Shown here: piece by piece, positions 8,313 to 34,254 of the stretch
How the letters are laid out: each line of letters opens with the position of its first letter
Position numbering within the stretch: the stretch's first letter is position 1
Assembly (NCBI GenBank): GCA_003567475.1
Contig: PWZL01000074.1
Span: 1 to 44,243 of the forward strand
DNA length: 44,243 nucleotides
Direction of reading: 5' to 3'
Source: Gammaproteobacteria bacterium
GTDB taxonomy: Bacteria > Pseudomonadota > Gammaproteobacteria > Steroidobacterales > PWYM01
Position numbers and translations under genes: made by a program
Notes under the pieces: generated by a model
What the model saw: only the letters and a program-made list of their open reading frames with translations
The model's database searches: none
What the model was told of the DNA's origin: nothing

Positions 8313-8339
8313 ACAGTATCAAAATGACCGGTCGGTCCA
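8313..8339 (-). promoter_or_regulatory. Putative promoter and TetR operator of the Rieske operon
   Basis: The inverted repeat GACC-ggtc-GGTC occupies 8326-8337. Read on the minus strand, its distal half forms a possible -35 (TGGACC, 8334-8339), with a possible -10 TACTGT (8313-8318) after a rather short 15-base spacer. It implies a leader of about 130 bases before the oxygenase start. The repeat is clear; the promoter hexamers are tentative. Confidence 0.5.
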
Positions 8340-8354
8340 TTAAGTCATGAAGCC

Positions 8355-9140
8355 TCAATCCGCAGAGTGGCCACGCGGACGCTTACCCGCCTGCCGCGGC
8401 CGACTCTGGCGCATCCAGCGACGCGCGCGATCACCCCGCCGGCGCCCCCCTTCCGCTTCGCCGGCCATGACCCGCTCGACAATCAGCTCGATCATCTCGT
8501 TGATGTCCTGCCAGTCCTCGTCCTGATCGAGCGCGTACCAGAAATACCGGGGCGCGCTGTGCGCCCGCAGGGCGAGGTAGGTGACCGCCGCATTCAGGAT
8601 GACCAGCAAGGCAATCGTGCCCTCGCGGCTGTATTCATCGGGCCGCGTGAAATACTTGCGCAGGTCCTTGCCGAAACCGGTGCGAACCTCTTCCAGCGCC
8701 TCGGTCAGCTGGTTGGGCCGCAGCAGCTCGTTGGCGAGGATCTCGAGCGTGCGGGGCCGACGGCGCAGTGCCGCCGCGTAGGCGGCGTAGTTGTGCGAGA
8801 TCTGTTCGGCCGTGGACAGGCGCGCATAGGCGTCGAGATCGTCGCCGGCCAGCTCGCCCTCTCCCGGCATGAAGTCACTCTGCTCACCCCAGGCCCGCGC
8901 GAGACCCTGGAGGCCGCCGAAATACTTGTAGAGAAGATTCTTGCCGACGCCGGATTCCTTGATCACGGCATTGACGCCGATGCCCTGCACCCCGTCGCGG
9001 TGCAGCACCTTGTCGAACGCACGGATCAGCGCCTGCTCCTTGGCCTCCGGATCGCGTGTCCAGCTGCGCCGGCGAGGCGCACGCTGTGCGCCTCCACCCG
9101 CCGTCACCCGGCGTGCCGGTTTGGTCGTTTCCCGCGCCAT
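8355..9140 (-). CDS. TetR-family transcriptional regulator 1
   Basis: A 261-residue TetR/AcrR-type repressor. After a basic, disordered N-terminus of about 25 residues comes the helix-turn-helix domain (VQGIGVNAVIKESGVGKN, then LLYKYFGGLQGLARAW). The C-terminal ligand domain carries LRRRPRTLEILANELL and FTRPDEYSREG. A second basic tail (GRRRGDRARRWMRQSRPR) is unusual and absent from the paralogue at 11264-11947, with which it shares most HTH residues. The gene has its own operator-bearing promoter just upstream, which fits autorepression. Its flanking position suggests control of the Rieske operon on one side and the SDR-DoxX operon on the other. The effector is unknown, likely a pathway substrate. 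Confidence 0.9.
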   Translation of the reverse strand: MARETTKPARRVTAGGGAQRAPRRRSWTRDPEAKEQALIRAFDKVLHRDGVQGIGVNAVIKESGVGKNLLYKYFGGLQGLARAWGEQSDFMPGEGELAGDDLDAYARLSTAEQISHNYAAYAAALRRRPRTLEILANELLRPNQLTEALEEVRTGFGKDLRKYFTRPDEYSREGTIALLVILNAAVTYLALRAHSAPRYFWYALDQDEDWQDINEMIELIVERVMAGEAEGGRRRGDRARRWMRQSRPRQAGKRPRGHSAD

Positions 9141-9164
9141 GACCTCTCCCCCGCTCCGGTCATC

Positions 9165-9192
9165 AGCATAGCATTTTGGACCGTTTGGTCAA
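9165..9192 (-). promoter_or_regulatory. Promoter and operator of TetR 1
   Basis: On the minus strand TTGACC (9187-9192), a 16-base spacer and TATGCT (9165-9170) form a good sigma-70 promoter; the expected transcript start is about 18 bases before the regulator's ATG. The inverted repeat GACC-gttt-GGTC (9179-9190) covers most of the -35 and part of the spacer, a classic position for autorepression. Confidence 0.65.
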
Positions 9193-9235
9193 TTTATTTT
9201 TTCAGCCTTTTGACCGCCTTCGACCCCCGCGAGAC

Positions 9236-9757
9236 TCAACGAAACAGGATGTTGCCCGGGTAGCGGCGGGCCAGCCGTCGATCCAGCCCCATCCAGCGCC
9301 CGGAGGGCGTGAGGATGAACATCAGGGCGATGGCGCCGAGCACGATCAGCGAGGCGTCGTAGAACCCGCCGATGGCGAACATGACGATGAAAAACAGGGC
9401 CGCTGCCCCTGCCCAACGCGTGCACAGGCCCAGCAGCAGACCGACACCGGCAGCCAGCTCACCCCAGGCGATCAGCCAGGAGATCGGCACATAAAACGGC
9501 ACCGCAAAGGCCTCGATAAAGGTCACCGCGAAAGACCCCGGATCGAGTTCCGGCAGGCGCTGCTCCAGCGTGACCTTGAGCTTGTCGGTGAACAGATAGC
9601 CGCCCCGGAATTTGTTGATCGACGCGAACAGGTAAAACAGCCCGAATACCCAGCGGTTGAACAGTACGAACACCCGCCCCAGCGAACGAAACGGCTGGGT
9701 ACGAAAATTGTTCCAGCGGAAAGGATCGACATCCTGAAGCGGGGCTAGGGTACTCAT
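9236..9757 (-). CDS. DoxX/DoxD-like membrane protein
   Basis: A 173-residue integral membrane protein with four hydrophobic segments. It has the DoxX-family layout: an N-terminal helix ending in FASINKF, a middle segment LIAWGELAAGVGLLLGLCTRWAG and a last helix LIVLGAIALMFILTPSGRWMGLDRRL. Members occur as the small subunit of thiosulfate:quinone oxidoreductase or in redox-linked membrane complexes; many have unknown roles. Its ATG overlaps the stop of the upstream secreted-protein gene by four bases (ATGA), so translation is coupled. It ends the SDR/secreted-protein/DoxX operon. A periplasmic redox function together with the cysteine-containing partner is an inference. Confidence 0.8.
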   Translation of the reverse strand: MSTLAPLQDVDPFRWNNFRTQPFRSLGRVFVLFNRWVFGLFYLFASINKFRGGYLFTDKLKVTLEQRLPELDPGSFAVTFIEAFAVPFYVPISWLIAWGELAAGVGLLLGLCTRWAGAAALFFIVMFAIGGFYDASLIVLGAIALMFILTPSGRWMGLDRRLARRYPGNILFR

Positions 9758-10275
9758 GGCTTTTCACTCGTTGAACCTGCAAGAAGATCACGACCATTCA
9801 CGGCAGTACAACGACCCATACGTCGGTCCTGATCGTCATGCCATGCCCCGTCGCCGCGGTCGATCCAGGCGCCGGGATACTCAATCCGGTTGCTGCCCAT
9901 GTCGAGCACCGCACGCGCCTCGGCGACCGCCTGCCAGCCACCCTCGGCGCCCGGGTGATAGAGCGTCACCGTGCGGGTTTCAGGCCGCACCGGCGCGAAC
10001 AGGTGCCGCAGCCAGGACCAGATGGTGCCGATCTGCTGCCAGAAATTGAGGCGTTGCACATGCAGCAGTACGGCCTGCACGTCAGCCGCGCCCGCATCGG
10101 GCTCGCACAGGGCAAAGCCCTCGCAGGTGGTGCAGAGTTCGCCATAGGGGGAACTGAGTAACGGGCGCTCATCCGCGCGCAGTGCCGTGGACACCAGCAG
10201 CAACGCCAGCCCCAGCACTGCAGCCAGACGCGACCAAACGCTATGGACGGGACTCGACAAGGTGACAGCGGTCAT
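9754..10275 (-). CDS. Exported cysteine-containing protein of unknown function
   Basis: A 173-residue protein I do not recognise. The N-terminus has a basic-hydrophobic signal sequence (VWSRLAAVLGLALLLVSTALRA in part), probably cleaved after ALRA. The mature start holds a compact cysteine motif, ELCTTCEGFALC, i.e. CxxC followed by another Cys six residues later; a further Cys is near the C-terminus (GRCTAVNG). This could bind a metal or cofactor or form disulfides. A strong ribosome site (GGAGGAGGG) lies inside the end of the SDR gene, four bases separate the genes, and the DoxX-like gene overlaps it by four bases. Tight coupling suggests it works with the DoxX-like membrane protein. Confidence 0.75.
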   Translation of the reverse strand: MTAVTLSSPVHSVWSRLAAVLGLALLLVSTALRADERPLLSSPYGELCTTCEGFALCEPDAGAADVQAVLLHVQRLNFWQQIGTIWSWLRHLFAPVRPETRTVTLYHPGAEGGWQAVAEARAVLDMGSNRIEYPGAWIDRGDGAWHDDQDRRMGRCTAVNGRDLLAGSTSEKP

Positions 10276-10279
10276 GTGC

Positions 10280-11113
10280 TCAACCCTCCTCCGGGCGAGC
10301 CTGCGGCTCGAAGGGACTTGGCCGGCGGCGGCGCAACACCCCCGCGGCCAGGAATCGGCCGATCGCCTTGCTACGGGTCAGCCAGGCAATCCGCGCACCA
10401 TGGGTCCGATTCGACAGCACCTGATCCACCAGCCAGGGGGCCACGGTCTCCACGCGGTCGCCAAGAATCTCGTACATGCGCTGCGAACGCTGCCATTGCG
10501 CCTCGCTGACGTGTTCGCGCTCACCGGTGATCATTTCGGTGATGACGATGCCGGGAAACAAGGTGCCGGTGTAGATCGGCCCGTCGGCGAATTCCTTGGC
10601 CAGACTGCGCCCGAAATAGCGGATCGCCGCTTTCGTCGTCCCATAGACCGAAAAGCCGGGCGTGGCCGTGCCGTCGCTCCCGAAGCCCTCGAAATTGAAC
10701 ACCTGGCCACCGTCGGGCTGCTGGCGCATCCCCGCGATCGCGATCCGCGTGGCAGCCATGGCACCCACCACGTTGGTGCGCACCACCGCCTCGATGGTGT
10801 CCAGTGACTGTTGCGCAAACGGCTGACGTGGCGACATCAACGCCGCATTGTTGATCCAGTAGTCCACCCGCCCGAAGCGCTCGACCGCCGCATCCCACAG
10901 CCCCTGCAGCGCCGCAGGATCGGCAGAATCGCAGGCCACACCCAGCACCCGCGCGGGCTGATCCGCATACGGCGGGCCGGCGAGCGCCTGCGCCACGCTG
11001 GCGTCGGTTCGCCCGGTGAACACCAGGCGGCAGTCACGCGCGAGAAAGGCCGCCGCCATACCCCGACCGATGCCCCGGGTTCCGCCTGTCAGCACCACGA
11101 CCTTGCCCGTCAT
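10280..11113 (-). CDS. Short-chain dehydrogenase/reductase
   Basis: A 277-residue classical-length SDR. The dinucleotide-binding motif is TGGTRGIG (residues 9-16), NNA is at 88-90, and the catalytic YGTTK gives Tyr157 and Lys161; a serine at 146 may complete the triad. Arg at the motif (TGRTD) suggests NADP(H) preference, which is weak evidence. The C-terminal stretch (LTRSKAIGRFLAAGVLRRRR) is hydrophobic-basic and could be membrane-associated. It is the first gene of the SDR/secreted-protein/DoxX operon, with an operator-covered promoter upstream. The reaction is probably oxidation of a secondary alcohol or reduction of a ketone in the local catabolic route. Confidence 0.88.
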   Translation of the reverse strand: MTGKVVVLTGGTRGIGRGMAAAFLARDCRLVFTGRTDASVAQALAGPPYADQPARVLGVACDSADPAALQGLWDAAVERFGRVDYWINNAALMSPRQPFAQQSLDTIEAVVRTNVVGAMAATRIAIAGMRQQPDGGQVFNFEGFGSDGTATPGFSVYGTTKAAIRYFGRSLAKEFADGPIYTGTLFPGIVITEMITGEREHVSEAQWQRSQRMYEILGDRVETVAPWLVDQVLSNRTHGARIAWLTRSKAIGRFLAAGVLRRRRPSPFEPQARPEEG

Positions 11114-11170
11114 TCAGCATCCGCTCCGTGACCCGCCCGATACCCTGGCGCAACCGCCAGGTCGAGAGTG

Positions 11171-11199
11171 AAGCTAGCAGTACCTGACCGTTAGGTCAA
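11171..11199 (-). promoter_or_regulatory. Promoter and operator of the SDR-DoxX operon
   Basis: On the minus strand TTGACC (11194-11199), a 17-base spacer and TAGCTT (11171-11176) form a standard sigma-70 promoter. The perfect inverted repeat TGACC-gtta-GGTCA (11185-11198) overlaps the -35 and the spacer. A TetR dimer bound there would block polymerase. The leader to the SDR start is about 50 bases. Confidence 0.65.
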
Positions 11200-11263
11200 T
11201 TACTATCTGAACGGCGGGAGCGTCAGTCCGCCAGGCAGTCAAGGGCTGGCGCGGGCGGTGTGC

Positions 11264-11947
11264 TCAGGACTCCGGCTCATCATCAAGCACGCGGTGGGCC
11301 ACCAGCTCGATCATGCGGTCGATCGCTGCCCAGTCTTCTTCGGTGTCGAGCGCGAGGTGCAGGTAGCGCGGCGAGGTGCGCGTGCGCAGTGCAAGGTAGT
11401 TGACCGCCGCATACAACAGGACCTGCAGCGCCACCGCCTCGTCGCTTGCATACTCCTCCGGCCGGGTGAAAAACCGTGTCAGCCCGCGACCATATTCGCT
11501 GCGTACGGTTTCCAGCGTGCGGGTCAGCGCAGTCGGCTGGGTCAGTTCATTCGCCAGGATTTCCAGGGTCCGCGGCCGACGGCGCAGCGCCCGCGCGAAC
11601 CGCTGATAGTTGCCGGCCAACTGTTCGGCCGTACTTTGTTCGGCATACGCCGCGGCATCACCCCCACCGATTTCATCGTCGGTCGGCAGGAAGTCCGTGT
11701 TGCGCGCCCAGGCCGCGGCCAGCCCCTGCAGGCCACCGAAATACTCGTATAACAGCCACTTGCCGACGCCGGCTTCCTTGACCACCTCGTTGACACCGAT
11801 GCCCTGAACGCCATGACGCTGAAGCACACGGTCAAACGCCGCGATCAGCTGTTGTTCCTTGCCCGCCCGATCCCGACGCCAGGCCTTCTTCTTGTGCTTG
11901 TTTCCAGCCCCACGGCTTGTGGTCGTCTTCTCTGGCACGCAATTCAC
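11264..11947 (-). CDS. TetR-family transcriptional regulator 2 (paralogue)
   Basis: A 227-residue TetR-type regulator, clearly paralogous to the one at 8355-9140. The HTH region reads VQGIGVNEVVKEAGVGKW then LLYEYFGGLQGLAAAW, differing from its sister at only a few positions; the ligand domain keeps LRRRPRTLEILANEL and RPEEYASDE. It lacks the long basic C-terminal tail of the sister. The N-terminus is lysine/arginine rich (KHKKKAWRRDRAGKEQQ). The near-identical recognition helices predict that both proteins bind the same GACC-N4-GGTC sites, while the more divergent C-terminal halves allow different effectors. A site of this type lies about 270 bases upstream. Confidence 0.9.
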   Translation of the reverse strand: MNCVPEKTTTSRGAGNKHKKKAWRRDRAGKEQQLIAAFDRVLQRHGVQGIGVNEVVKEAGVGKWLLYEYFGGLQGLAAAWARNTDFLPTDDEIGGGDAAAYAEQSTAEQLAGNYQRFARALRRRPRTLEILANELTQPTALTRTLETVRSEYGRGLTRFFTRPEEYASDEAVALQVLLYAAVNYLALRTRTSPRYLHLALDTEEDWAAIDRMIELVAHRVLDDEPES

Positions 11948-11974
11948 TCCCCGGCGCGCGACGGGCGCCCCTGA

Positions 11975-12157
11975 TCACACCTGGGGCAGGACGTGCAGAC
12001 CGATCTGCAACGCCTGAAAACACAGCAACCCGCTCAACAGGCCAGCCCGCAGCATGCCACGAAAGACATTGATCCGTCCTCGCCAGCGCGCCACCAGTCC
12101 GCCGCCCACCAGCAGCCAGGTCAACACCCCAAGCGGCGCACCCAGGTGGCAGGCCAT
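11975..12157 (-). CDS. Small hydrophobic open frame, possibly a gene remnant
   Basis: A 60-residue frame with two predicted membrane helices (LGVLTWLLVGGGLVARW and LRAGLLSGLLCFQALQIGL). It occupies most of the 330-base gap between TetR 2 and the racemase-like gene. No good Shine-Dalgarno precedes the ATG, and the same frame stays open and protein-like for at least 20 codons upstream without a usual start, so it may be the tail of a decayed gene or a small protein with a non-standard start. It lies just downstream of the operator at 12218-12231. Apart from this frame and the operator I see nothing else in the gap. Confidence 0.3.
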   Translation of the reverse strand: MACHLGAPLGVLTWLLVGGGLVARWRGRINVFRGMLRAGLLSGLLCFQALQIGLHVLPQV

Positions 12158-12217
12158 GTTACGACCCGTGGCCTGGAAGGTTAAGGCCTCGACGCCGAAC
12201 AGCGTGCGACTAATTCT

Positions 12218-12231
12218 TGACCAATCGGTCA
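12218..12231. promoter_or_regulatory. Putative TetR operator upstream of TetR 2
   Basis: A perfect inverted repeat TGACC-aatc-GGTCA, identical in arms to the site before the SDR operon. I cannot match convincing -10 and -35 elements around it. It is about 60 bases before the small hydrophobic frame and 270 bases before the TetR 2 start, so it probably serves that transcription unit. Confidence 0.55.
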
Positions 12232-12277
12232 GCTTCTACCGGCGCCCTTTGGTTGGCAAAATTGCCGGGCTCAGAAT

Positions 12278-13021
12278 TCAGAATTCCTCGAGCAGCCTGC
12301 CGAAGCCGCGCATGCGATCCTGGATGCCGTTATGACGCAGCGCATGCCAATAGGTCGCCGTATTGATCGCGATCACCGGCTTGGCCAGAAACAGCTCCGC
12401 GGCGGCGGCGAGTCGGACCATGCTGAGATTGGTCCCCACCTGGACGATGGCGTCGACGTCGTCCCCGTCGAGCTCGAGGATGGTGTCGCGCAACCTGGGG
12501 GTCGGCACCTGGGCAATTGCGGTCCAGGACGGACATTGCAGTGGAATGTCCCGCACCACAGTGAAGCCGCATTCCTCATAGTAGCGCCGGACCTCGTCGT
12601 TGGCCGCGGGGAAATACGGCGAGAGAAACGCCACCCGCTTCACCCCATAAGTCTCGAGCGCCGCGCGGGTGGCGGCCGCGCCGGTGCTGACGCTCACGCC
12701 CGAGGCCTCCTCGACCTTGCGCTCGAAGGCCGCGTTGCCCTCGACGCCGCCATAGAACGTGATCGCCGACATGCCCATCACGAGATACTGGGGGCTGCAG
12801 GTCATCACCGACTCGACGGCCGCGAGCACGTTGTCGGAAATCTTCTGGGTCCCGGCAAGAAAGGTCTCGTTGCTGATCGCCTGGCTGTCCGGGGTGAAGA
12901 TCCGGCTGTAGTGATTGGTCACGCCGGGCGGGCGCATGTCATCGAAATCCGGCTGGACGATGGTGTTGGTGGAAGGCCCCAGCACGCCGAACAGCCGGCG
13001 CCACCCTTGTACATCGGTCAT
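12278..13021 (-). CDS. Maleate isomerase/Asp-Glu racemase-fold protein lacking catalytic Cys
   Basis: A 247-residue member of the maleate cis-trans isomerase/arylmalonate decarboxylase group. The start region (LFGVLGPSTNTIVQPDFDDM) and HYSRI are typical. Family enzymes use cysteines in two symmetric motifs, of the form ACTSG and SCTNL. Here the first motif reads VMGMSAITFYGG (residues 81-92) and the second reads VGTNLS (195-200), so both cysteine positions appear replaced. The remaining cysteines (75, 151, 163) are outside these motifs. It may be a decarboxylase, hydratase or lyase with altered chemistry, or a binding protein. It follows the FAD monooxygenase by 48 bases with its own CAGGAG site and is probably co-transcribed. 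Confidence 0.8.
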   Translation of the reverse strand: MTDVQGWRRLFGVLGPSTNTIVQPDFDDMRPPGVTNHYSRIFTPDSQAISNETFLAGTQKISDNVLAAVESVMTCSPQYLVMGMSAITFYGGVEGNAAFERKVEEASGVSVSTGAAATRAALETYGVKRVAFLSPYFPAANDEVRRYYEECGFTVVRDIPLQCPSWTAIAQVPTPRLRDTILELDGDDVDAIVQVGTNLSMVRLAAAAELFLAKPVIAINTATYWHALRHNGIQDRMRGFGRLLEEF

Positions 13022-13069
13022 GTCCCCACTCCTGTGTCGGTGTCGTGCGTCGAATCCAGCGCGGCGGCG

Positions 13070-14263
13070 TCAGGCCACTGCGGCGGCATCCTCGAGACTG
13101 GTGAACAGCGACTGGCGCAGCAGGAAATCGCGGCGCAGCGCATCGTCGGCCAGCGTCCGGCGCATCTGCTCGCGCTGGCGCGCCTGCTCGTCGGCGTCAC
13201 GCGCCTCCATCGCCTGCTTGTTGGCAATGGTCTGGGCCTGGACGTAGCGGTGCATCACCGTGCGCCGCTGGCGATCGTAGAGATCGAGCAGACTCTCGGG
13301 CGCGCCGTCACGAAGAATCTCGATGAGCTTGTGACACAGGTCCCAGGCGTCGTGAATGCCTGAGTTCATGCCCATGCCGCCCAGCGGATTGTTCAGGTGC
13401 GCGGCATCGCCGGCCAGCAGCACCCGCCCGACCCGGTAGGTGTTGGCGACCCGCTGATGGACCCGGTAGATCGTGCGGTGCTCGGTGCGCACCTGCGCGC
13501 CCTCGCCGACCAGCCCGTCGAACACGCGGTTCTTCTTCTCCTCGCTGAGCAGCCACTCGTCGGACTCCTCGTCGCGCGAGGGCACCAGCACCCGCCAGAG
13601 ACTCGGCACCCGCAGCAGCACCACCCACTCCTGGGGATCGGAGACATAGTTGACGTAGGCCAGGTCCTCGAAGTGCGCCTCCAGCGCCAGCTTGGTGGAC
13701 AGACACAGGAAGCGCTCGGGGTAGGTGAACCCGGAGAACTCCACGCCCAGCCACTTGCGCACGATGCTGTTGGCACCGTCGGCGGCGATCAGGTAATCGG
13801 CCTGGTAGTGATCGATGCCATAGGGGGTCTCCAGAGCCACGTTCACCCCGGCGGAGTCCTCGGTGAAGTGCACCACGCGATGGTTGAACAGCAGCCGCGC
13901 GTTGTCCTGCTGCGCCAGCAGGCCGGTGAGGTGGCGGGCGAGCTTCCACTGCTCGCACTGCACCCGGTAGGGATGCGCGGTGACGTCGGCGAGCTCGGAG
14001 AGATCGAAGGAGAAGACCTCGTCGGTGCTGCGGTCGCGGTACTGGTAGATCGGCGCCTTCAGCCCCTGATCGAACAGCAGATCGACCACACCGAGCTCAT
14101 CGAGCATCTCGATGGTTGGCGGGTGGAAGGTCGAGGCGCGCAGATCGCGTGGGCACTCCGGCGCCGCCTCCGCCACCACCACATCGATGCCCTGGCGGGC
14201 GAGAATATAGCCCGCCACCGATCCCACCGGCCCCGCGCCGGAAATCAATACCTGTGTTTTCAA
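13070..14263 (-). CDS. FAD-dependent aromatic monooxygenase (TTG start)
   Basis: A 397-residue class A flavoprotein hydroxylase related to MhpA/PheA-type enzymes, which hydroxylate phenolic rings with NAD(P)H and O2. All three FAD signatures are present: GAGPVG (residues 9-14) near the N-terminus, the DG motif (AADGANSIVRKWLG) and the GD motif (GRVLLAGDAAHLNNPLGGMGMN). I place the start at a TTG because AGGAGG lies eight bases before it and the first residues then lead straight into the Rossmann strand; the upstream ATG at 14365 would add 34 residues of unlikely sequence. It heads a two-gene unit with the racemase-like gene and is divergent from the deacetylase-like gene. Confidence 0.9.
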   Translation of the reverse strand: MKTQVLISGAGPVGSVAGYILARQGIDVVVAEAAPECPRDLRASTFHPPTIEMLDELGVVDLLFDQGLKAPIYQYRDRSTDEVFSFDLSELADVTAHPYRVQCEQWKLARHLTGLLAQQDNARLLFNHRVVHFTEDSAGVNVALETPYGIDHYQADYLIAADGANSIVRKWLGVEFSGFTYPERFLCLSTKLALEAHFEDLAYVNYVSDPQEWVVLLRVPSLWRVLVPSRDEESDEWLLSEEKKNRVFDGLVGEGAQVRTEHRTIYRVHQRVANTYRVGRVLLAGDAAHLNNPLGGMGMNSGIHDAWDLCHKLIEILRDGAPESLLDLYDRQRRTVMHRYVQAQTIANKQAMEARDADEQARQREQMRRTLADDALRRDFLLRQSLFTSLEDAAAVA

Positions 14264-14391
14264 GACCCCGGCCTCCTGCCTCGCCCTGGTGATGGTCTGA
14301 GCATACCCGGCGGATTGGCCTCCGGCGCAGGGCGCACCCGGCACGTCCGACTGGCGAATACCCACTCAGCGGCCCACGCGCCCGGCCCCCT

Positions 14392-14408
14392 TGACCACCC
14401 AGCGGTCA
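14392..14408. promoter_or_regulatory. Inverted repeat TGACC-N7-GGTCA in a divergent promoter region
   Basis: The 237 bases between the FAD monooxygenase and the deacetylase-like gene contain TGACC and GGTCA arms separated by seven bases. The arms equal those of the TetR operators, but the spacer is three bases longer. It lies 128 bases before the TTG start and 92 bases before the ATG on the other side. It may bind another regulator or be chance. Confidence 0.3.
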
Positions 14409-14500
14409 TGACGTCGCCGGACCTACGCACCCCGCCGCTGATCTTCTAGGTTTGCCGCTGGTGCGGCCATCGCGGCCGCGACGGCGCAGGATCCAAGCCC

Positions 14501-15412
14501 ATGCACTACGACTACGTCCCCTTTCCCGAGCGCGGCCCGCTGGTGTTTCCAGACGGCAAGCGCATCGCCCTGATCCTCACCTTCAATCTCGAATACTGGG
14601 ACATGGTCAAGGACTATTCCCGGCCCTACTACGCCGGCGGTCCGCCCATCCTCCCGGACCTGCTGCCCGGCGACGTCGCCGACTTCCCCAACTTCACCTG
14701 GCGCGAGTACGGCCAGCGGGTGGGCATCTGGCGGCTGTTCGAGCTGTTCACCGAGCTGGGCGTGCCCGCCAGCTGCACCTTCAACGCCAAGACCGCGCTT
14801 GAACGCCGGGCGATGGTCGACTACCCGCTCAAGCAGGGCTGGGAGCTGCTGGCGCACAACTACGAGCAGGGTGAGCTGCTCACCGAGTTCGCCAAGGATC
14901 CCGCGCGCGAGCGCGAGATCGTGCTGAAGACCCTGGAGGTGTTCGAGCAGACCACCGGGCGCAAGGCCCGTGGCTGGTTGTCCTCCTCGCTGCGCGGCAC
15001 GCCCAACACCCCGGCCATCCTCGCCGAGGCGGGCTGCCTGTTCTACTGCGACCTGATGAACGACGACCAGCCCTACCTGGTCCAGACCCCGGCCGGGCCG
15101 ATCGTCTCCACCCCCTACAGCAATGAAATCAACGACTTCACCATCCTCACCCGCCGCGGCCATACCACCGACGAGTTTCGCGATATCCTGATCGAGGAAC
15201 TCGATGTGCTCTACGCGGAGGCCGCGCAGACCGGCAAGATGATGAACGTCGGCATCCACCCGCACGTCAGCGGCCGCGCCTATCGTGTGCGCGCGCTGCG
15301 CGAGTTCCTGGAACACGCCAAATCGCTGCCCGGCGTCTGGTTCACCACCCGCGAGGAACTCGCCCGCTGGTATCTTGAAAACCACCAACAGCACATCCCG
15401 GCCGGGCACTGA
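14501..15412 (+). CDS. Polysaccharide deacetylase-fold (NodB/PuuE-like) hydrolase
   Basis: A 303-residue cytoplasmic protein with the NodB-homology TIM-barrel-like fold. Recognisable parts are RIALILTFNLEYWDM (strand 1), ASCTFNAKTALERR, the segment WELLAHNYEQGELL that corresponds to the family's 'GHEIASHG' motif, and RGWLSSSLRGTPNTPAILAE. The arrangement is that of the PuuE/allantoinase-like branch, which hydrolyses C-N bonds in small molecules, rather than of peptidoglycan or chitin deacetylases; there is no signal peptide. It opens a plus-strand operon with an aldehyde dehydrogenase and an MDR enzyme. In this setting a hydrolytic or decarboxylating step on a ring-cleavage product is plausible but unproven. 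Confidence 0.8.
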   Translation: MHYDYVPFPERGPLVFPDGKRIALILTFNLEYWDMVKDYSRPYYAGGPPILPDLLPGDVADFPNFTWREYGQRVGIWRLFELFTELGVPASCTFNAKTALERRAMVDYPLKQGWELLAHNYEQGELLTEFAKDPAREREIVLKTLEVFEQTTGRKARGWLSSSLRGTPNTPAILAEAGCLFYCDLMNDDQPYLVQTPAGPIVSTPYSNEINDFTILTRRGHTTDEFRDILIEELDVLYAEAAQTGKMMNVGIHPHVSGRAYRVRALREFLEHAKSLPGVWFTTREELARWYLENHQQHIPAGH

Positions 15413-15454
15413 TCCGCCCGGCAGCCACGTCCCACACCGACTGAGGAGATTGCG

Positions 15455-17991: not shown

Positions 17992-17996
17992 GGCGC

Positions 17997-18023
17997 ATCC
18001 GCGGGCGGGCCTGGCCCGCGGAT
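17997..18023. terminator. Bidirectional hairpin between convergent genes
   Basis: A perfect ten-base stem (ATCCGCGGGC, 17997-18006, with GCCCGCGGAT, 18014-18023) and a seven-base loop lie between the stops of the MDR gene and rplY. There is no long T-run; TTTG follows on the plus side only. Position and stability make a shared terminator likely. Confidence 0.55.
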
Positions 18024-19868: not shown

Positions 19869-19943
19869 TGGCTGGGGTGGCAGGATTCGAACCTGCGAAT
19901 GACGGGATCAAAACCCGCTGCCTTACCACTTGGCTACACCCCA
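19869..19943 (-). tRNA. tRNA-Gln (anticodon UUG), CCA encoded
   Basis: A 75-base cloverleaf on the minus strand. The acceptor arm pairs TGGGGTG with CACCCCA, followed by discriminator G and an encoded CCA. The T arm is GCAGGTTCGAATCCTGC, and the anticodon stem GCGGG/CCCGT encloses a loop containing TTG. Its 5' ten bases overlap the 3' end of ispE, whose TAG stop lies inside the tRNA. It reads 5' to prs in the same direction, and co-transcription with ispE is likely. Confidence 0.96.
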
Positions 19944-24607: not shown

Positions 24608-24610
24608 CGC

Positions 24611-25702
24611 ATGGCGCTGTCCACCAGTCTCGAGACCCGCCTCGAACGCCTGCTGGAGCGTTTCGAGGAAATCGAACAGTTGCTGGCCGATCCGGAGGTG
24701 ATCGGTGATCAGGCCCGCTTCCGCGAACTCTCCCGCGAGTATGCCCGCCTCGAAGCGGTGGCGGGCGATGTCCGCACGTATCGCCAGCTCGGCGATGAAC
24801 TGGCGGCGGCCAGGACCATGGCTGGCGAAGACGACCCGGAACTGGCCCGGCTGGCTCGCGACGAGGCCGACACGCTGGCGGCGCGACTGGAGGCGATGCT
24901 GCCCACGCTGACCCGCCATCTCGTGCCGGTGGATCCGCGCGACGACGGGAACGTGTTTCTCGAGATACGCGCGGGCACCGGCGGCGACGAGGCAGCGCTG
25001 TTCGCAGGCGATCTGTTCCGCATGTACGGGCGTTACGCGGAACTCCGCGGCTGGCAGGTGGAGATCCTCAGTTGCAGCCACGGTGAGCACGGTGGCTACC
25101 GTGAGGTCATCGCCCGGATCGCTGGCCAGGGGGTGTATTCGCGCCTGAAATTCGAGTCCGGCGCGCATCGGGTACAGCGGGTCCCGGCGACGGAGTCCCA
25201 GGGCCGCATCCACACCTCCGCCTGCACGGTCGCCGTCCTGGCTGAGCTCGACGAGGTCGAGGATGTCGCCATCGGTGACAAGGACCTGCGGGTCGACACC
25301 TACCGCGCCGCAGGGGCCGGCGGCCAGCATGTCAACAAGACCGACTCGGCCGTGCGGATCACTCATCTGCCGAGCGGCCTCGTCGTCGAGTGCCAGGACG
25401 AGCGCAGCCAGCACAAAAATCGTGCCCGCGCCATGGCGCTGCTCAAGGCCAAACTGCGTGACGCTGAGGAAGCGCGCCAGCGCAGCGAACGGGCGCTCGA
25501 ACGCAAGCTGCTGGTCGGTTCCGGCGACCGCTCGGAACGCATCCGCACCTACAACTTCCCGCAAGGCCGCGTCACCGATCACCGGATCAACCTGACCCTC
25601 TACCGGCTCGAAGAGCTGCTCGAGGGCGCGCTCGACGCGGTGATCGACCCGCTGATCGCCGAGGACCAGGCCGAGCAGCTCTCACGGCTCGCGGTGCAGT
25701 GA
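24611..25702 (+). CDS. prfA: Peptide chain release factor 1
   Basis: A 363-residue class I release factor that reads UAA and UAG. The codon-recognition motif is Pro192-Ala193-Thr194 ([14 protein letters not shown]), which distinguishes RF1 from RF2 (SPF), and the peptidyl-hydrolysis GGQ is at 237-239 ([16 protein letters not shown]). The N-terminal coiled-coil domain and the C-terminal [13 protein letters not shown] segment are complete. It starts three bases after hemA and ends ten bases before prmC, whose product methylates the GGQ glutamine. Confidence 0.97.
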
Positions 25703-25711
25703 GCGGCGACC

Positions 25712-26608: not shown

Positions 26609-26631
26609 ACAATGACCATTAAGGAGTTGAC

Positions 26632-27123: not shown

Positions 27124-27137
27124 GACCGGAGCGGCGC

Positions 27138-27914: not shown

Positions 27915-27917
27915 ACC

Positions 27918-28643
27918 ATGCCGTTACACACCCGCGCGCTGCCGAGCCTGTGCCTGCTGCTGCTCACCATGACATCGACGGGCGCGGCCTTCGGGCAGGA
28001 GGAGTCGAAGGCCCTGCCCGAGCGCGAACGCATCGCCATCATCGGCACGGGCAATGTCGGCAGTGCGCTCGGACGCCGCTGGGCGGCAACCGGACACGGG
28101 ATCATCTACGGCAGCCGCACACCGGACAGTGACCGGGTGCAGGAATTGCTTGCCGCCACCGGCCCTGCGGCCCGGGCGGCAACACCTGCCGAGGCGGCCC
28201 GCGAGGCCGACATCGTGGTGCTCGCCATCCCTTGGCGAGTGGCTGAGGACACGCTGCGCGAACTTGGCGACCTGTCCGGTCGGGTGGTCATCGACCCGAT
28301 CAACCCTTCGCGGTTCACAGACGGTCGGGTGGAGCTCGGCCACCCCTCACTCGGCGAGGCCCTTGCCGAACTGGCGCCGGAAGCGGCCTTCGTGAAAACC
28401 CTGAACACCACGAGTTATCAGAACATGCTCGAGCCGCCATCCGATCGAAGCATTACGATGCCACTGGCAGGGGACGATGCCCAGGCCCTGGCGCGCGTCG
28501 CGCGTCTGGTCGCGGAGCTCGGGCTGTCACCACGCGTGGTCGGTCCGTTCTATAACGCCCGCTATCTCGAGGCGATGGGCAACCTGTACATCTACGTCAA
28601 CGTGATCCAGCAACCCGACCTGCGGCTGGAATACCACTTCTGA
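27918..28643 (+). CDS. Exported NADP oxidoreductase, F420-reductase-like
   Basis: A 241-residue protein with a Sec-type signal (LPSLCLLLLTMTSTGAAFGQ) followed by a Rossmann domain. The dinucleotide loop is IAIIGTGNVGSALGRRWAAT, then YGSRTPDS, whose arginine suggests NADP(H). The rest matches the NADPH-dependent F420 reductase/FNO-like family: DIVVLAIPWRVAEDTL, VVIDPINP and KTLNTTSYQNML. The family is normally cytoplasmic, so the signal peptide is odd; a lipoprotein is less likely as no lipobox is seen. Its start is four bases after the MoeB-like gene. It is the first of three exported dehydrogenase-type proteins in a row. Confidence 0.85.
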   Translation: MPLHTRALPSLCLLLLTMTSTGAAFGQEESKALPERERIAIIGTGNVGSALGRRWAATGHGIIYGSRTPDSDRVQELLAATGPAARAATPAEAAREADIVVLAIPWRVAEDTLRELGDLSGRVVIDPINPSRFTDGRVELGHPSLGEALAELAPEAAFVKTLNTTSYQNMLEPPSDRSITMPLAGDDAQALARVARLVAELGLSPRVVGPFYNARYLEAMGNLYIYVNVIQQPDLRLEYHF

Positions 28644-28766
28644 CCCAGCCGCGCGCCGACAGGCCACCGAGGGCGGCGGCTGAGCGTGGCGGCGAGTGGC
28701 GGCATTTCGCCTGCCACGCCCGCTCCGGTACGATGGCGCGTCGTGTCTTTTCAGGAGAACAGGAGC

Positions 28767-29723
28767 ATGCGTGATCCTTCACTCCGCCGCCGGGGTCTTC
28801 TCAAGGCGGCGCTGGCCGGGACGACGGCACTGGCCGCAGGCAGGATGCTGCCTGCGTTGGCCCATGAACACGCCTCCTCGGCGCCGATCACCCGCGCCAT
28901 CCCCACCACGGGCGAGCCCTTGCCGGTCATCGGCCTGGGGACCAATGCCTATGGCGTGCAGACCGCCGAGGACATGGCCCCGCTGCGCGAAGTGCTTCGC
29001 GACATGTCGCGGCTTGGGGGTACGGTCATCGATACCGCCCATGCCTACGGACGCTCGGAAGAAGTCATCGGTGAACTGCTCGAGTCACTGGGTAACCGCG
29101 ATGACTATTTCCTCGCCACCAAGACACCGATCCGCGGTGAACTCCCCGATGTCGATGCCGCCATCCGGAGCTGCCTGGAGCGCCTGCGCGTCTCGCAGCT
29201 CGACCTCCTGCAGGTCCACAACCTCCACGAGATCGACCGCCAGTACCCCTACTTCCTCGCGGCCCGAGACGCAGGACTGACGCGCTACATCGGGGCCAGT
29301 GTCTCCTCGCCGGGGCAGTACGATGACTTCATCTCGGCCACGCGCAGGAATCGCTTCGACTTCATCCAGGTGAATTACTCGATCGATGATCGCGGCGCCG
29401 CAGAGCGAATCCTGCCCATGGCCGAAGACCACGGGATCGCGGTGCTGATCAACATGCCCTTCGGCGGTCGGCGCGGCGCGGCCGGGGTCTTCGCGCGGGT
29501 CGCCGACCGACCGCTGCCGAATTGGGCGGCAGAGATCGATGCCGAGAGCTGGGCTCAGGTCTTTCTCAAGTACGTGGTTTCGCATCCCGCCGTCACCGCG
29601 GCCATCCCGGGCACCACACGGCTGCGTCACCTGCTCGACAACCAGGCGGCCGGCCGAGGGCGACTCCCGGATGAGGCACTGCGACGCGACATCGAGCGTT
29701 ACTGGGATGCGCTGCCCTCATGA
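28767..29723 (+). CDS. Tat-exported aldo/keto reductase
   Basis: A 318-residue AKR-superfamily protein with a twin-arginine signal (RRRGLLKAALAGTTALAAG, cleavage probably near LPALAH). The fold's catalytic tetrad is in place: Asp in VIDTAHAYG, Tyr in the same segment, Lys in FLATKTP and His in LLQVHNLHEI. The C-terminal PGTTRLRHLLDNQAAGRG is a typical cofactor segment. The start at 28767 puts the Tat motif in the right place and follows AGGAG elements. Tat export of a folded protein allows cofactor to be loaded in the cytoplasm. Its stop overlaps the next gene's ATG (ATGA), so the two are coupled. Confidence 0.9.
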   Translation: MRDPSLRRRGLLKAALAGTTALAAGRMLPALAHEHASSAPITRAIPTTGEPLPVIGLGTNAYGVQTAEDMAPLREVLRDMSRLGGTVIDTAHAYGRSEEVIGELLESLGNRDDYFLATKTPIRGELPDVDAAIRSCLERLRVSQLDLLQVHNLHEIDRQYPYFLAARDAGLTRYIGASVSSPGQYDDFISATRRNRFDFIQVNYSIDDRGAAERILPMAEDHGIAVLINMPFGGRRGAAGVFARVADRPLPNWAAEIDAESWAQVFLKYVVSHPAVTAAIPGTTRLRHLLDNQAAGRGRLPDEALRRDIERYWDALPS

Positions 29724-30658
29724 GAGTCGGGCACTGGAACAGACGCCAACTGCTGGCGGCGCTGGGCTCGGCAGCCACGACCGCCCTGGTGCCGGCCGCG
29801 TTCGCCGCGCCGCGTGACGGCTGGTTTGGCCTCGATCGCGGGACGTTGACCGGCCAGGTCGCACTGGTCACCGGGTCCACAGACGGACTGGGGCGGCAGG
29901 TCGCCCTGGAGCTCGCAGGCCTTGGCGCCACCGTACTGGTGCACGGCAGAAACCGTGAACGCGGCGAGGCCGTGCTGCAGGACATCCGTGAGTCGGGGGG
30001 CGACGCGGCCTTCTACCAGGCGGATTTCGCCGCCCTTGCCGGCGTCCGCGGGCTGGCCGAGGCCGTGCGCAGCGACCACGAGCGACTCGATCTGCTGATC
30101 AACAACGCCGGCATCTGGCGCCGCGAAGGCGACGACACGCGCCACCTCAGCGAAGATGGCCATGAACTGATGTTCGCGGTGAACTACCTCGCCGGGTTCC
30201 TTCTGACCCATGCGTTGCGACCGCTGCTGGCGGCCTCAGCGCCCTCACGCGTCATCAACGTCGCCTCGGGCGCCCAGACGCCCCTCGATTTCGATGATCC
30301 CATGCTCGAGCAGGCATTCTCACCGAGACGCGCCTACGCCCAGAGCAAACTCGCCCAGATCACCTTCACCATGGACATCGCCGAGGCCTTCGCAGCTGAT
30401 GGGATTACGGTCAACAGTCTGCATCCGGCCACCCTGATGGACACCACCATGGTGCGCCTGGCAGGGATGGCCCCGCGGGCTACCGTGGCAGAAGGCGTGG
30501 AGGCGGTGATGCAGCTGGCGGTGTCCCCCGCCTATGCCGAGCGCGGCGGGCTTTACCTGGAAGGCACTGAAGAGGCTCGCGCCCATCCGCAAGCCTACGA
30601 TGAGGCCGCCCAGGCGGCGCTCCGCGCGCTCAGCGAGGCCCTGGTCGCCGCCGACTGA
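29720..30658 (+). CDS. Tat-exported short-chain dehydrogenase/reductase
   Basis: A 312-residue SDR with a twin-arginine signal (NRRQLLAALGSAATTALVP, ending AAFA). The mature part has the cofactor loop TGSTDGLGRQVALELA, NNAG in the active-site region, VINVASGAQ and the catalytic YAQSK. The motif and arrangement resemble retinol dehydrogenase/WWOX-like SDRs. Both this gene and its coupled AKR neighbour carry Tat signals, which is unusual for nicotinamide-dependent enzymes. It converges on the second TonB-dependent receptor with a hairpin in between. The substrate is unknown; lipophilic alcohols or ketones are plausible. Confidence 0.9.
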   Translation: MRVGHWNRRQLLAALGSAATTALVPAAFAAPRDGWFGLDRGTLTGQVALVTGSTDGLGRQVALELAGLGATVLVHGRNRERGEAVLQDIRESGGDAAFYQADFAALAGVRGLAEAVRSDHERLDLLINNAGIWRREGDDTRHLSEDGHELMFAVNYLAGFLLTHALRPLLAASAPSRVINVASGAQTPLDFDDPMLEQAFSPRRAYAQSKLAQITFTMDIAEAFAADGITVNSLHPATLMDTTMVRLAGMAPRATVAEGVEAVMQLAVSPAYAERGGLYLEGTEEARAHPQAYDEAAQAALRALSEALVAAD

Positions 30659-30679
30659 CCGCCGCCTGGACGACGGACC

Positions 30680-30702
30680 GGGGTGACCCACCGGGTCTCC
30701 CC
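30680..30702. terminator. Hairpin between the exported SDR and the second TonB receptor
   Basis: GGGG-T-GACCC pairs with GGGTC-T-CCCC around a three-base loop (four plus five base pairs with one T-T mismatch). It sits between two convergent stops. There is no T-run, so intrinsic termination is uncertain. Confidence 0.4.
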
Positions 30703-30721
30703 GCCGCCGCCCGCGGCCGGC

Positions 30722-33235
30722 TCAGTTGAAGTTCATCGCGAAACGCAGACCATAGAGCCGTGGTGCCGGCAGATAGGCGTTGAACGCACGGCTTGGCGCG
30801 AAACCATCCGGCCGACCGAAATCCACATTGCGTTGCGCGGTGATGATCCGGTCGTTATCGAATACGTTGTCGACATAGGCCGTCAGCGTCCAGCGGTCAC
30901 TTTCCACGCCCGCCTGGAGATCGACGAGCACATAGCCGGGCAACCACGTCAGATTCGACTCGTCCACGTAGCGACGCGAGCGGTAGGCCGAGGACGCCTG
31001 GGCAAACCAGTGATTCCCGGTCGCCCCGAGCGGTCGACGGTGGAAGGCGCTGGCATTGACCGCATGGCGGGGACTTTTGGCGACGCGATTGCCAGAGAAA
31101 TCTCCACAGGCGTTACCAGCCTCCACCCGCACGATCGGCGAGGACGTCTGACCCGCCGGTACCCCGCAGGCAGCGAAGATTGCCAGGGCATCCTCCAGCG
31201 GCAGATCTGCCGGTGGCGCCCCCGGCCCCTGGATGAACTCTTTGAACTCCGCATCCGTCCAGGCGTAAGCCAGCCCCAGCGTGGTGGTGTCACTCAGCCG
31301 CCAGTTCGCGACCAGTTCCAGGCCCATCACCTCGACCTTGCCCGCGTTGGTGATACGCGAGGTCGCAAACCCCGTGTCGAGATCGATCTGCTGTACGCCG
31401 ATCTGCTGATCGGTGTAGTCGTTGAAGTAGACATCGGCGTTGACCACCAGCCGATTGTCCAGCCAACTGGATTTCAGCCCGGCCTCGTAAGCCTTGAGCT
31501 TCTCGGGACGGAACTGCCGACCCTCGAAATCGGTGATCTCCAGCGTCTCGTAGCCGCCAGGCTTGAAACCGCGCGCGTGACTCACATAGAACAGCACCTG
31601 CTCGCTGGCACGATATTCGAGCGTCGCACGTGGTGTCACCTGCCGGCTCGAATGCGTCGCGGTCTGCGGGCAGGCATTGATCACGCCGGGTGACAGCGGC
31701 ACGCGCTGAGGCAGGGCGGGATCGCAGCCAGGTTCCACGCGCAGCAGGGTGATGTCTTCGAGCCCCCATCCCGAGGTGAAGTAATCCACTTCGTCGCGGT
31801 TCCAGCGCGCCTGCAATGAGACGCGGAAGCGATCGCCGAGGTCACGATTCACTCCGGCGAAAACCCCGAGATAGTCGGTCTTGCGCTGGGTAAACACTGG
31901 GAATTCGACATCCTGCAGTGGCTGGGTGGGCAGAAAGAACGGCGGCCCCCCAAGGAAAGAATCGGGATTACGCAGCCAGTACTGACTGTCGTTGACCAGT
32001 TCCGCCGTTTCGTCGAATTTCTGTACCCCGGCGATCCAGTTGAACGGACCGGTGACGTGGGTCCAACGCAGCTCATGGTTGAGGTGACGGGTGGTGTAAT
32101 CCAGGCTCTGGTAAGCCGAGATCGCAAACGCGAAAGGATCGTCGACCGGAAAGTCGGTGAAGTCCCCATCCTGCTTGATGAGCGTGTCGTTCTGCAGCCA
32201 GCTGCCCATGTACACGAAGGTGCCGGCCTCGGTGGCCCAATCCAGCTCCCAACTGCCGATATGCTGGCGCATCGCCATGCCGGCTGGGGGTTCACCGGTG
32301 ATCGGATCAAGCCCCATCTGCACGTCCTGGACGCCCGCCCGGATCGGCCCGGTGAAGGTGGCACGGGTCAGCTCGGTGCCAGGCACCGGCAGCCGGGTGT
32401 TCGAGGGGATGAAGGCCGTCGGGTTGTCCGATTCCTCGCGATCGATGTACTGGTATCGGGTGGTCAGCGAGAGCGTCGCCGAAGGCTCGAAACGAAACCC
32501 CAGCGCGACCCCGGTCGACTCCTCGGCGCCCAGCGGCCCGCCGTTGACCGGGTTGGTGTAGTGACCGTCGCTCTCGAGATGGGCGGCATTCAGGCGAAAC
32601 GCGACGGTCTCGCCGACCAGGGGCCCCGTGAGCGAGGCGGTGTACTCGCGGCGACCGTCGTTGCCGAGGTCCAGACCCGCCCGGCCGCCGAACTCGAACG
32701 CCGGCGCACGGGTGATGTAGTTGATCGCCCCGCCGAAGGCGTTGCGACCATACAGCGTGGACTGAGGGCCTTTGACGATTTCGATCCTCTCGAGGTCGTG
32801 CAGCGCGAGGTTCAGCGTGCCTGACCCCCCTGGCAAGGCGAGGTTGGAACTGGACAGATCATGCCCATCGATCAGCACCGCGACACTAGGACGCCCGCGC
32901 TCGTTTTGCATCCCCCGCATGGCGGGACGGGTATCGTTCGGGAAGGCGCCCCGATCGAACGTGATCCCCGGCGTCAGGCGCGCGACGTCTTCGGTGCGCA
33001 GCAGGCGCTCACGCTCGATGCGCACGGTGTCATAGACGACGATCGACAAGGGCACGTCCTGCGCCCGTTCATCGACTTTGCGCACCGTGACGATGATCTC
33101 GTCGATGACACGCACGCCATCGGCGCGGGTTCCGGTCTGCGCCAGCGCCAGTGACCCTGCGCCCATGCCAGCAAGTGCCAGGCAGACGCCCATGGCGACA
33201 GGCCCGCGCGTCTGTGGGTGGTGTTGAGTATTCAT
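30722..33235 (-). CDS. TonB-dependent outer-membrane receptor (copy 2)
   Basis: An 837-residue receptor, paralogous to 1796-4306. A signal peptide (MGVCLALAGMGAGSLALAQ) precedes a TonB-box-like segment (DEIIVTVRKVDERAQD), the plug (RGMQNERGRPSVAVLIDG, VKGPQSTLYGRNAFGG) and a barrel ending in LYGLRFAMNFN. The plug and barrel signatures DVYFNDYTDQQIGVQQ and YTDAEFKEFIQG also occur, with small changes, in the first copy. The start has GAGGGA upstream. It follows the membrane protein gene by 66 bases, downstream of an operator-bearing region. The two receptors likely handle related ligands. Confidence 0.93.
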   Translation of the reverse strand: MNTQHHPQTRGPVAMGVCLALAGMGAGSLALAQTGTRADGVRVIDEIIVTVRKVDERAQDVPLSIVVYDTVRIERERLLRTEDVARLTPGITFDRGAFPNDTRPAMRGMQNERGRPSVAVLIDGHDLSSSNLALPGGSGTLNLALHDLERIEIVKGPQSTLYGRNAFGGAINYITRAPAFEFGGRAGLDLGNDGRREYTASLTGPLVGETVAFRLNAAHLESDGHYTNPVNGGPLGAEESTGVALGFRFEPSATLSLTTRYQYIDREESDNPTAFIPSNTRLPVPGTELTRATFTGPIRAGVQDVQMGLDPITGEPPAGMAMRQHIGSWELDWATEAGTFVYMGSWLQNDTLIKQDGDFTDFPVDDPFAFAISAYQSLDYTTRHLNHELRWTHVTGPFNWIAGVQKFDETAELVNDSQYWLRNPDSFLGGPPFFLPTQPLQDVEFPVFTQRKTDYLGVFAGVNRDLGDRFRVSLQARWNRDEVDYFTSGWGLEDITLLRVEPGCDPALPQRVPLSPGVINACPQTATHSSRQVTPRATLEYRASEQVLFYVSHARGFKPGGYETLEITDFEGRQFRPEKLKAYEAGLKSSWLDNRLVVNADVYFNDYTDQQIGVQQIDLDTGFATSRITNAGKVEVMGLELVANWRLSDTTTLGLAYAWTDAEFKEFIQGPGAPPADLPLEDALAIFAACGVPAGQTSSPIVRVEAGNACGDFSGNRVAKSPRHAVNASAFHRRPLGATGNHWFAQASSAYRSRRYVDESNLTWLPGYVLVDLQAGVESDRWTLTAYVDNVFDNDRIITAQRNVDFGRPDGFAPSRAFNAYLPAPRLYGLRFAMNFN

Positions 33236-33301
33236 AGCCGAAGTCCCTCATGACGAATGTGCCCGCCCCCCGGGCAACAGCCAAACGACCGCCGGTGGGT
33301 G

Positions 33302-34180
33302 CTAGCTGGACGCCTGCACCCCGCCGGAAGCCACCGGGTGCGAGCCTGACGGGCGCCGCACCAATACACCGAGTGAAAAAAGGAAAACCGCCAGCACCGT
33401 GAGACTGGCCAGCGGCCATTCCAGCGGCCGCTGCCAGAACGCCGGCAGCAGTCCGAACTGAGCCGGAAGCTCGACCAGAATCCAGGCGATCAGTCCCACC
33501 GGGATGCCGTAACGCAGCGCATAGGCCGGCCGGGAAATCCGCAGCTGGCGGCCCACCAGGTAGAGCGCCCAGACGCCGTAGACCGCGAAGATGGTCCAGA
33601 GTAAGGCACCGAAGCCGACCGCCCAGTACACCAGCAGCCACAGCACGTTCAGTGCCCAGATGATGACCAGGGTTTCCATGGCGACGACCCGTGCAACCTT
33701 GCGCCGCAGCCCGGGCGTCGGCTGTCCCGGGGACAGCCGGCCATGGCGCATCACGAAACGCATGAACGCACAGCGCGTCTCGCGATTGAGCATCCCGTAG
33801 AGCAGCAGGACCGCGAGCAGCGCCGGACCACTGGCCAGCAGCAACCCGTTGGCGCCGGGCAGCGCCACCCCGGGGGCGATCTCCAGCGGCGGTACCGAGA
33901 GTTGCTCGGCAAACAGTTGGAAGCCGAACTGGAACCAACCGCCCCAGATCATCCAGCCGCCCAGGAACCCCAGCACCCCGGCGCGCATCTCCTCAGCCCG
34001 CAAGCCAAAGGCAACCAGCGCAATGCCGAGACCGCCCCACGCGGCGGCCAGCCCGTACTGGAGACTGCCGCCCCCCTGGTAGTGGTTCAGGGACCACAGA
34101 CCTGTGCCCACAGGCGTGCACAGAAAGGCGGCCGCGAGCGCCGCGACCACCAGGATTTGCCTGTCAACTATGCGTGACAT
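33302..34180 (-). CDS. Polytopic membrane protein of unknown function (292 aa)
   Basis: A 292-residue inner-membrane protein with about eight hydrophobic segments, for example QILVVAALAAAFLC, LLLASGPALLAVLLLYGML and VVAMETLVIIWALNVLWLL. I do not recognise its family, and it does not resemble the membrane protein at 9-731. It is the first gene of a unit with TonB receptor 2, so it may be the inner-membrane half of the same uptake step. A promoter with its -10 almost at the ATG suggests a leaderless message. There is no good Shine-Dalgarno before the start. Confidence 0.72.
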   Translation of the reverse strand: MSRIVDRQILVVAALAAAFLCTPVGTGLWSLNHYQGGGSLQYGLAAAWGGLGIALVAFGLRAEEMRAGVLGFLGGWMIWGGWFQFGFQLFAEQLSVPPLEIAPGVALPGANGLLLASGPALLAVLLLYGMLNRETRCAFMRFVMRHGRLSPGQPTPGLRRKVARVVAMETLVIIWALNVLWLLVYWAVGFGALLWTIFAVYGVWALYLVGRQLRISRPAYALRYGIPVGLIAWILVELPAQFGLLPAFWQRPLEWPLASLTVLAVFLFSLGVLVRRPSGSHPVASGGVQASS

Positions 34181-34188
34181 AGGGCGGG

Positions 34189-34218
34189 CTTATACTGTAA
34201 GCCGCGCTTGACTGTAAA
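34189..34218 (-). promoter_or_regulatory. Sigma-70 promoter with a near-zero leader
   Basis: On the minus strand TTTACA (34213-34218), an 18-base spacer and TATAAG (34189-34194) lie upstream of the membrane protein gene. The expected start of transcription is within about two bases of the ATG at 34180. Confidence 0.5.
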
Positions 34219-34240
34219 CAGGGGAATCGCCCGGAATGTC

Positions 34241-34254
34241 AGACCGGTTGGTCA
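34241..34254. promoter_or_regulatory. Putative TetR operator before the membrane-protein/TonB-receptor operon
   Basis: AGACC-ggtt-GGTCA, with the core GACC-N4-GGTC shared with sites near 8.3, 9.2, 11.2 and 12.2 kb. Here it lies about 60 bases upstream of the predicted transcript start rather than over the -35, so a role in activation, looping or an unseen second promoter is possible. Confidence 0.5.

Follow-up and report, generated by a model that had tools for sequence, protein, structure and literature searches.

The window, by which we mean the whole stretch of 44,243 bp that was analyzed, carries two separate gene clusters in which copies of one short palindrome stand between genes. The larger cluster encodes two paralogous TetR-type regulators, here called TetR1 and TetR2. 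Every one of the genes concerned lies on the minus strand:

1796-4306, minus strand: first TonB-dependent receptor (family match)
5687-6991, minus strand: MFS transporter (family match)
7019-8179, minus strand: Rieske oxygenase (Pfam families Rieske and VanA_C)
8355-9140, minus strand: TetR1, 261 aa (TetR_N 23.0 bits, slightly under the cut-off of 24; 56% identity to TetR2)
9236-9757, minus strand: DoxX-family membrane protein (family match)
10280-11113, minus strand: short-chain dehydrogenase, SDR (family match)
11264-11947, minus strand: TetR2, 227 aa (TetR_N 28.9 bits, over the cut-off of 24; TetR fold)
30722-33235, minus strand: second TonB-dependent receptor (family match)
33302-34180, minus strand: membrane protein without a Pfam family (Pfam search)

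In the direction of transcription, the larger cluster begins with genes for a FAD monooxygenase and an arylmalonate-decarboxylase-like protein, followed by the palindrome at 12219, TetR2, the palindrome at 11186, SDR, a 173-aa protein, DoxX and the palindrome at 9179. It continues with TetR1, the palindrome at 8326, the Rieske oxygenase, the MFS transporter, a 425-aa protein and the first TonB receptor. The separate cluster consists of the palindrome at 34242, the membrane protein and the second TonB receptor. Gene-family searches agree with the units that the first-pass annotation had drawn behind these sites. The predicted operators are listed below without strand, and their scores refer to the matrix of foreign sites described later:

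8326-8337: operator 1, GACCGGTCGGTC, 5' of the Rieske unit; score 20.5
9179-9190: operator 2, GACCGTTTGGTC, 5' of TetR1; score 24.2
11186-11197: operator 3, GACCGTTAGGTC, 5' of the SDR/DoxX unit; score 20.6
12219-12230: operator 4, GACCAATCGGTC, 5' of the TetR2 unit; score 21.3
34242-34253: operator 5, GACCGGTTGGTC, 5' of the membrane-protein/TonB-receptor unit; score 13.9

A pattern count over all 44 kb returned six matches to GACC-N4-GGTC. The five sites that the first-pass annotation had reported, with identical arms and a four-base spacer, were all recovered in place and are intergenic as it had said; they fall in the 6.4% of bases that are non-coding within the gene-assigned stretches (1796-14365 and 30722-35928). 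The sixth match, at 25283 within coding DNA, was absent from its list. The estimate of one or two chance matches for this 12-mer was fair; window shuffles yielded a mean of 1.35 matches and reached six in 1 of 100 cases.

Both regulators belong to the TetR family by their TetR_N domain, TetR2 through its own score and TetR1 through its identity to TetR2. The model of TetR2 (pLDDT 84.6) shows the all-helical TetR fold. Its top PDB matches are TetR-family proteins of low identity with TM-scores of about 0.5-0.6, the best being Bacillus FadR at 16% identity; the nearest solved relative by sequence is a weak match (E 0.00058). Each of the two genes has the palindrome in its own promoter, as the conserved predicted operators at 9179 and 12219.

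The palindrome is conserved within the genus. Of the four congeners, G001, G003 and G004 have orthologues of both regulators, and none was found in G002 (87% complete). Contigs of the congeners match metagenome-assembled gammaproteobacterial genomes, DLM2.Bin61 and CSSed162cmB_305 among them, which presumably come from soda-lake samples. Both arms are intact at all 12 readable orthologous places (4/4 in G003, 5/5 in G004, 3/3 in G001). Two places lie beyond contig ends and do not enter this count, those before the TetR2 gene of G003 and the TetR1 gene of G001. The arms were kept in all congeners read for operators 1 (3/3), 2 (2/2), 3 (3/3) and 4 (2/2), and for operator 5 in both congeners possessing the membrane-protein gene, for which neither G001 nor G002 gave a match. 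At six of the 12 places the spacer has changed while the arms were kept (GGTC to AAGC; GTTT to ATAT; GTTA to ATTA; AATC to ATTC or TCTC; GGTT to GGGT). The other six are less telling because they are unchanged; the nearest congener, G003, accounts for four. G001 also has a site 5' of a TonB-receptor gene, at the place that follows DoxX.

The bare palindrome is not enriched genome-wide. The first-pass annotation had proposed counting it across the genome, and in the own genome (G000; 3.06 Mb, 102 contigs) this gave 169 places for GACC-N4-GGTC and 317 for the reversed-pattern control. The lack of excess reflects that the bare 12-mer is too weak as a motif; enrichment was therefore dropped from the arguments and the case built on other tests. 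The longer pattern GACCGNYNGGTCA, in one orientation, fits all five sites and occurs at 15 places in 3.06 Mb, five of them within this 44-kb contig, a count that is partly circular because the pattern was derived from the same five sites. Requiring TGACC-N4-GGTCA on both sides was rejected as too strict (seven genome places, two in the window).

Stronger evidence comes from TetR relatives outside the genus. Relatives were taken as the best 80 of 128 from a scan of named genomes, and the first 43 of these (L081-L123) were examined upstream. They include four congener records (L081, L082, L083, L085), a Steroidobacteraceae metagenome-assembled genome (L084) and near-copies, for example two strains of Microbulbifer agarilyticus. 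All combinations of 256 four-base arms and 13 spacers (0 to 12) were ranked over up to 400 bp upstream, some stretches being short. Among these 43, TGAC-N6-GTCA ranked first (16/43) and GACC-N4-GGTC second (11/43), followed by a GC-rich pattern (9/43). As a control, TGAC-N6-GTCA was found in 42 of 1978 windows of 400 bp drawn at random from these loci. The form AATTGACC-N4-GGTCA stands in the own promoters of many, not all, relatives of TetR1 and TetR2 in other families. TGAC-N6-GTCA is absent upstream of 27 of the 43, some with short stretches; L086 and L093 are without it though they group with the genus's own regulators in the tree. Likewise, six loci of another family with Rieske, DoxX or TonB neighbours (L066, L067, L069, L072, L073, L076) have no such site just 5' of the TetR gene. 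The Microbulbifer relatives have a drifted form, TTGACT-N4-AGTCA. In L084, the nearest relative outside the genus, the site lies between the TetR gene and an SDR gene; among the loci examined, no others combine the operator with catabolic genes than those of this genus and, as regards SDR, L084.

A matrix built from foreign sites recovers the operators of the window. It was derived from 12 sites outside the genus, nine from the 43 loci and three others; the L105 site was omitted because its flanks do not fit. The five highest-scoring places in the window are exactly the five sites (24.2, 21.3, 20.6, 20.5 and 13.9, with operator 5 lowest), and the next scores 8.6. Across 200 simulated windows, the fifth-best score averaged 4.7 and reached at most 8.8. 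One simulated window held a single best site of 22.3; what is exceptional is therefore the five sites together, not any one of them. A matrix from the eight unique 20-mers placed the same five on top (24.4 to 14.6; next 9.2), and none of 1000 column-permuted matrices reached 14.6 at fifth place (highest 14.2).

The distribution of the site was also compared with the phylogeny of the regulators. In a TetR tree of 42 rows, where all eight genus rows were labelled site-bearing (two by assumption, TetR2 of G003 and TetR1 of G001), the site label requires 5 changes compared with 14.5 in shuffles, a control that is lenient because there are close relatives among the rows. A clade of 11 rows (98/98) from Alpha- and Gammaproteobacteria has the site in 11 of 11. 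The neighbours tested in this clade are ABC-2 exporters, MFS carriers and hydrolases; hence DNA specificity appears to follow the regulator, not the target genes. That TetR relatives from other families and classes have this motif upstream links it to the TetR proteins. The proposal of one regulon over both regions of the window is supported by this finding and by the conservation of the sites, including the distant one at 34242.

In the distant gammaproteobacterium L110, the operator at 5932 separates a TetR relative from a divergently oriented ABC-2 exporter set (2139-5836), which comprises an ATPase and two DUF3526 permeases; the L068 frames are similar.

Candidate sites outside the window were sought in the own genome. 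TGACC-N4-GGTC gave 74 rows, in which some palindromic places appear twice, and matrix scoring covered 80 distinct GACC-N4-GGTC sites of the 169. Four places were checked in the congeners and one was accepted. This site, G000:C38:5757, reads TTGACC-N4-GGTCC and is kept in all three congeners having the gene, with spacers ATCC (G000), GCCC (G003), GGCC (G004) and GAGC (G001). It precedes a gene for a membrane protein of 460 aa that contains a CxxCH haem motif and gave no Pfam match at 1e-5. Within the genus, the full-length protein occurs only in the four TetR-bearing genomes and not in G002. Distant homologues covering both halves occur in family f15 (G031, G042, G076, G081), and none of the loci of the four best homologues in another family (L255-L258) has such a site. 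Of the four places, this one makes a convincing case for placing the predicted cytochrome unit in the regulon. The regulon is thus probably somewhat larger than the first-pass annotation described, reaching beyond the window to at least this site.

The other places are less clear. The site at G000:C98:20075 (L228 position 2078), TTGACCGCTCGGTC, lies on the stop codon of a gene that we take to be alaS, followed by csrA; its arms are kept in G003 and G004, the palindrome is shifted in G001, and the place lacks coverage in G002. It is possible that this is a further member or a chance match. For C25:44836, G003 keeps the site, G004 has it displaced, G001 shows a degenerate form and G002 lacks it. 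C48:19995 was rejected for now as a member, being kept in G003 and absent in G004 (G001 and G002 are unaligned there). C90:37838 scores 16.2 with the matrix and lies inside a 484-codon open frame.

The position of the palindrome relative to promoters suggests how it may act. At all 12 foreign sites, TTGACC faces the TetR gene; the hexamer 16-18 bp further on matches TATAAT at three or more of six positions in 11 of 12, a count that has no control. In the window, operator 2 overlaps TTGACC-16-TATGCT before TetR1 and operator 3 overlaps TTGACC-17-TAGCTT before SDR, both with a weak -10 and likewise uncontrolled. The Rieske site of G001 reads TTGACC-16-TATCTT in the alignment. By the same promoter scan, the TetR2 site at 12219 has no good -10. 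The best candidate promoter that can be read at 34242 and at C38:5757 lies downstream of the operator; activation, or another promoter, is therefore possible at these two places.

Read jointly, the palindromes are probably operators of the TetR1/TetR2 subfamily, at several of which the bound protein would obstruct the -35 box and repress the units until a ligand relieves it. From the computed sites, their conservation and their computed tie to the TetR subfamily, we infer binding, repression, a ligand and co-transcription. A TetR dimer would occupy both arms of an operator whose full form is about AATTGACC-N4-GGTCA. Its TTGACC half would serve as a good -35 box at the TetR1, SDR and, most clearly in G001, Rieske units. 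Because the operator covers the -35 box, the bound protein should block RNA polymerase, causing autorepression as well as co-repression. The repressed genes would be the regulator's own gene and the Rieske/MFS/TonB, SDR/DoxX and membrane/TonB units, and the regulon would include at least one more unit, the membrane cytochrome gene (G000:C38). A small molecule, probably a substrate or intermediate of the Rieske/SDR pathway, would release the TetR protein, and both TonB receptors, the MFS carrier, the oxygenase and the dehydrogenase would then be induced jointly. Blocking of the polymerase with ligand-lifted repression is the simplest mechanism.

The strongest rival explanation is that only one TetR protein uses the operator, the other having drifted to another site or being merely controlled. 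Two residues differ between the predicted recognition helices (GVGKNLLYKYF and GVGKWLLYEYF), and a single regulator could explain a site upstream of each TetR gene. However, foreign relatives with the same operator have yet other residues in these places, commonly A and R, so the two differences need not alter specificity, and the paralogues are 56% identical. We regard this explanation as a serious possibility, though not the probable one. A more elaborate scheme is rather unlikely: the sister regulators, sharing one operator, would repress at the -35 boxes of TetR1, SDR and Rieske, whereas at the membrane/TonB and cytochrome units, where it lies upstream of the promoter, they would act as activators or oppose each other. 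This would impose an order of uptake and then catabolism, with a specificity kept across classes of Pseudomonadota as its targets moved from exporters to catabolism.

It is very improbable that some other, unlinked regulator acts at the sites and that their closeness to the TetR genes is accidental. The link rests on sequence comparison; nevertheless, the same palindrome precedes TetR relatives in unlike neighbourhoods of other families and classes, and G002, the 87% complete genome lacking both regulators, also lacks a match to the membrane protein and a full-length match to the cytochrome gene. Chance, or a compositional or terminator-like palindrome with no regulatory role, would fit the 169 genome places without excess and the one window shuffle in 100 that reaches six, but it is hardly credible, being largely refuted by arms that are conserved while spacers vary, by the foreign matrix that puts the five sites on top, and by inspection and an Rfam scan of the window, which found no T-run 3' of the sites and no Rfam element at them.

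With its operators of the TetR1/TetR2 subfamily, the probable regulon is a new instance of a familiar type of gene switch. In PMC6790063, TetR-family autorepressors are described as acting at a short palindrome over the promoter of their own gene and its neighbours. The present system resembles them in its TetR-type DNA-binding domain, its fold and a palindrome over own and neighbour promoters. It differs from them in having two paralogues and at least five units under one palindrome, spread over two clusters and a further contig.

Two Escherichia coli regulators have similar sites. We take the consensus of RutR, the pyrimidine-utilisation regulator, to be TTGACCAnnTGGTCAA, with the same arms and spacing as here. 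The likeness of the proteins is limited to the TetR-type fold: 4jyk_B is at rank 22 with 15% identity to the TetR2 model, and no RutR-labelled chain is among the 19 sequence matches (E <=0.1). RutR responds to uracil and thymine, according to PMC6790063. Uracil-degradation genes are absent among the families found in the window, and the fifth arm base is not fixed here. The operator of NemR, the electrophile sensor, presumably also has GACC...GGTC arms. No NemR-labelled chain is among the 19 sequence matches. NemR senses through cysteines, as stated in PMC9342713, whereas cysteine is absent from TetR1 and limited to Cys3 in TetR2, so that NemR-type sensing cysteines are lacking here.

A functional parallel is PheR of Sphingobium sp. 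SHPJ-2, which PMC13273656 presents as a repressor linking the uptake of an aromatic compound to its first oxidation. Uptake and oxidation are there under one repressor, as proposed here; unlike TetR1 and TetR2, PheR belongs to the IclR family and recognises another sequence (PMC13273656). Neither the operator nor the regulon was found in the open-licence literature, including under four written forms of the motif.

These results provide a testable operator and a list of candidate genes for a TetR subfamily of Gamma- and Alphaproteobacteria that is so far uncharacterised. They join the Rieske/TonB cluster, the membrane/TonB cluster and the cytochrome gene in one probable pathway. In addition, an operator common to two paralogues offers a direct way to test how a regulon is partitioned between duplicated repressors.

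Some minor features of the window accompany the sites. A second palindrome, GTAACTTCAGATAGTTAC (GTAACT-N6-AGTTAC, 34255-34272), adjoins operator 5 and has the same sequence in G003 and G004. It is the sole match in the window even at two mismatches (0.08 expected) and may be where a further regulator of the membrane/TonB unit binds. A small membrane-protein frame at about 11975-12215 (minus strand), which lies between operator 4 and TetR2, is complete in G004 and lacks its first part in the window; none was seen in G001. The stretch from operator 1 to the Rieske gene (8195-8314, minus strand) contains a 30-nt block invariant in four genomes, in a frame for a short peptide that contains FVSPLAESLM in each of them and, read from a GTG, is 39 aa long in the window. 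No Rfam family matches it in the scan of the window, and it is possibly a small protein or leader peptide. The sole Rfam match in the window is a tRNA gene at 19872-19943 (minus strand).
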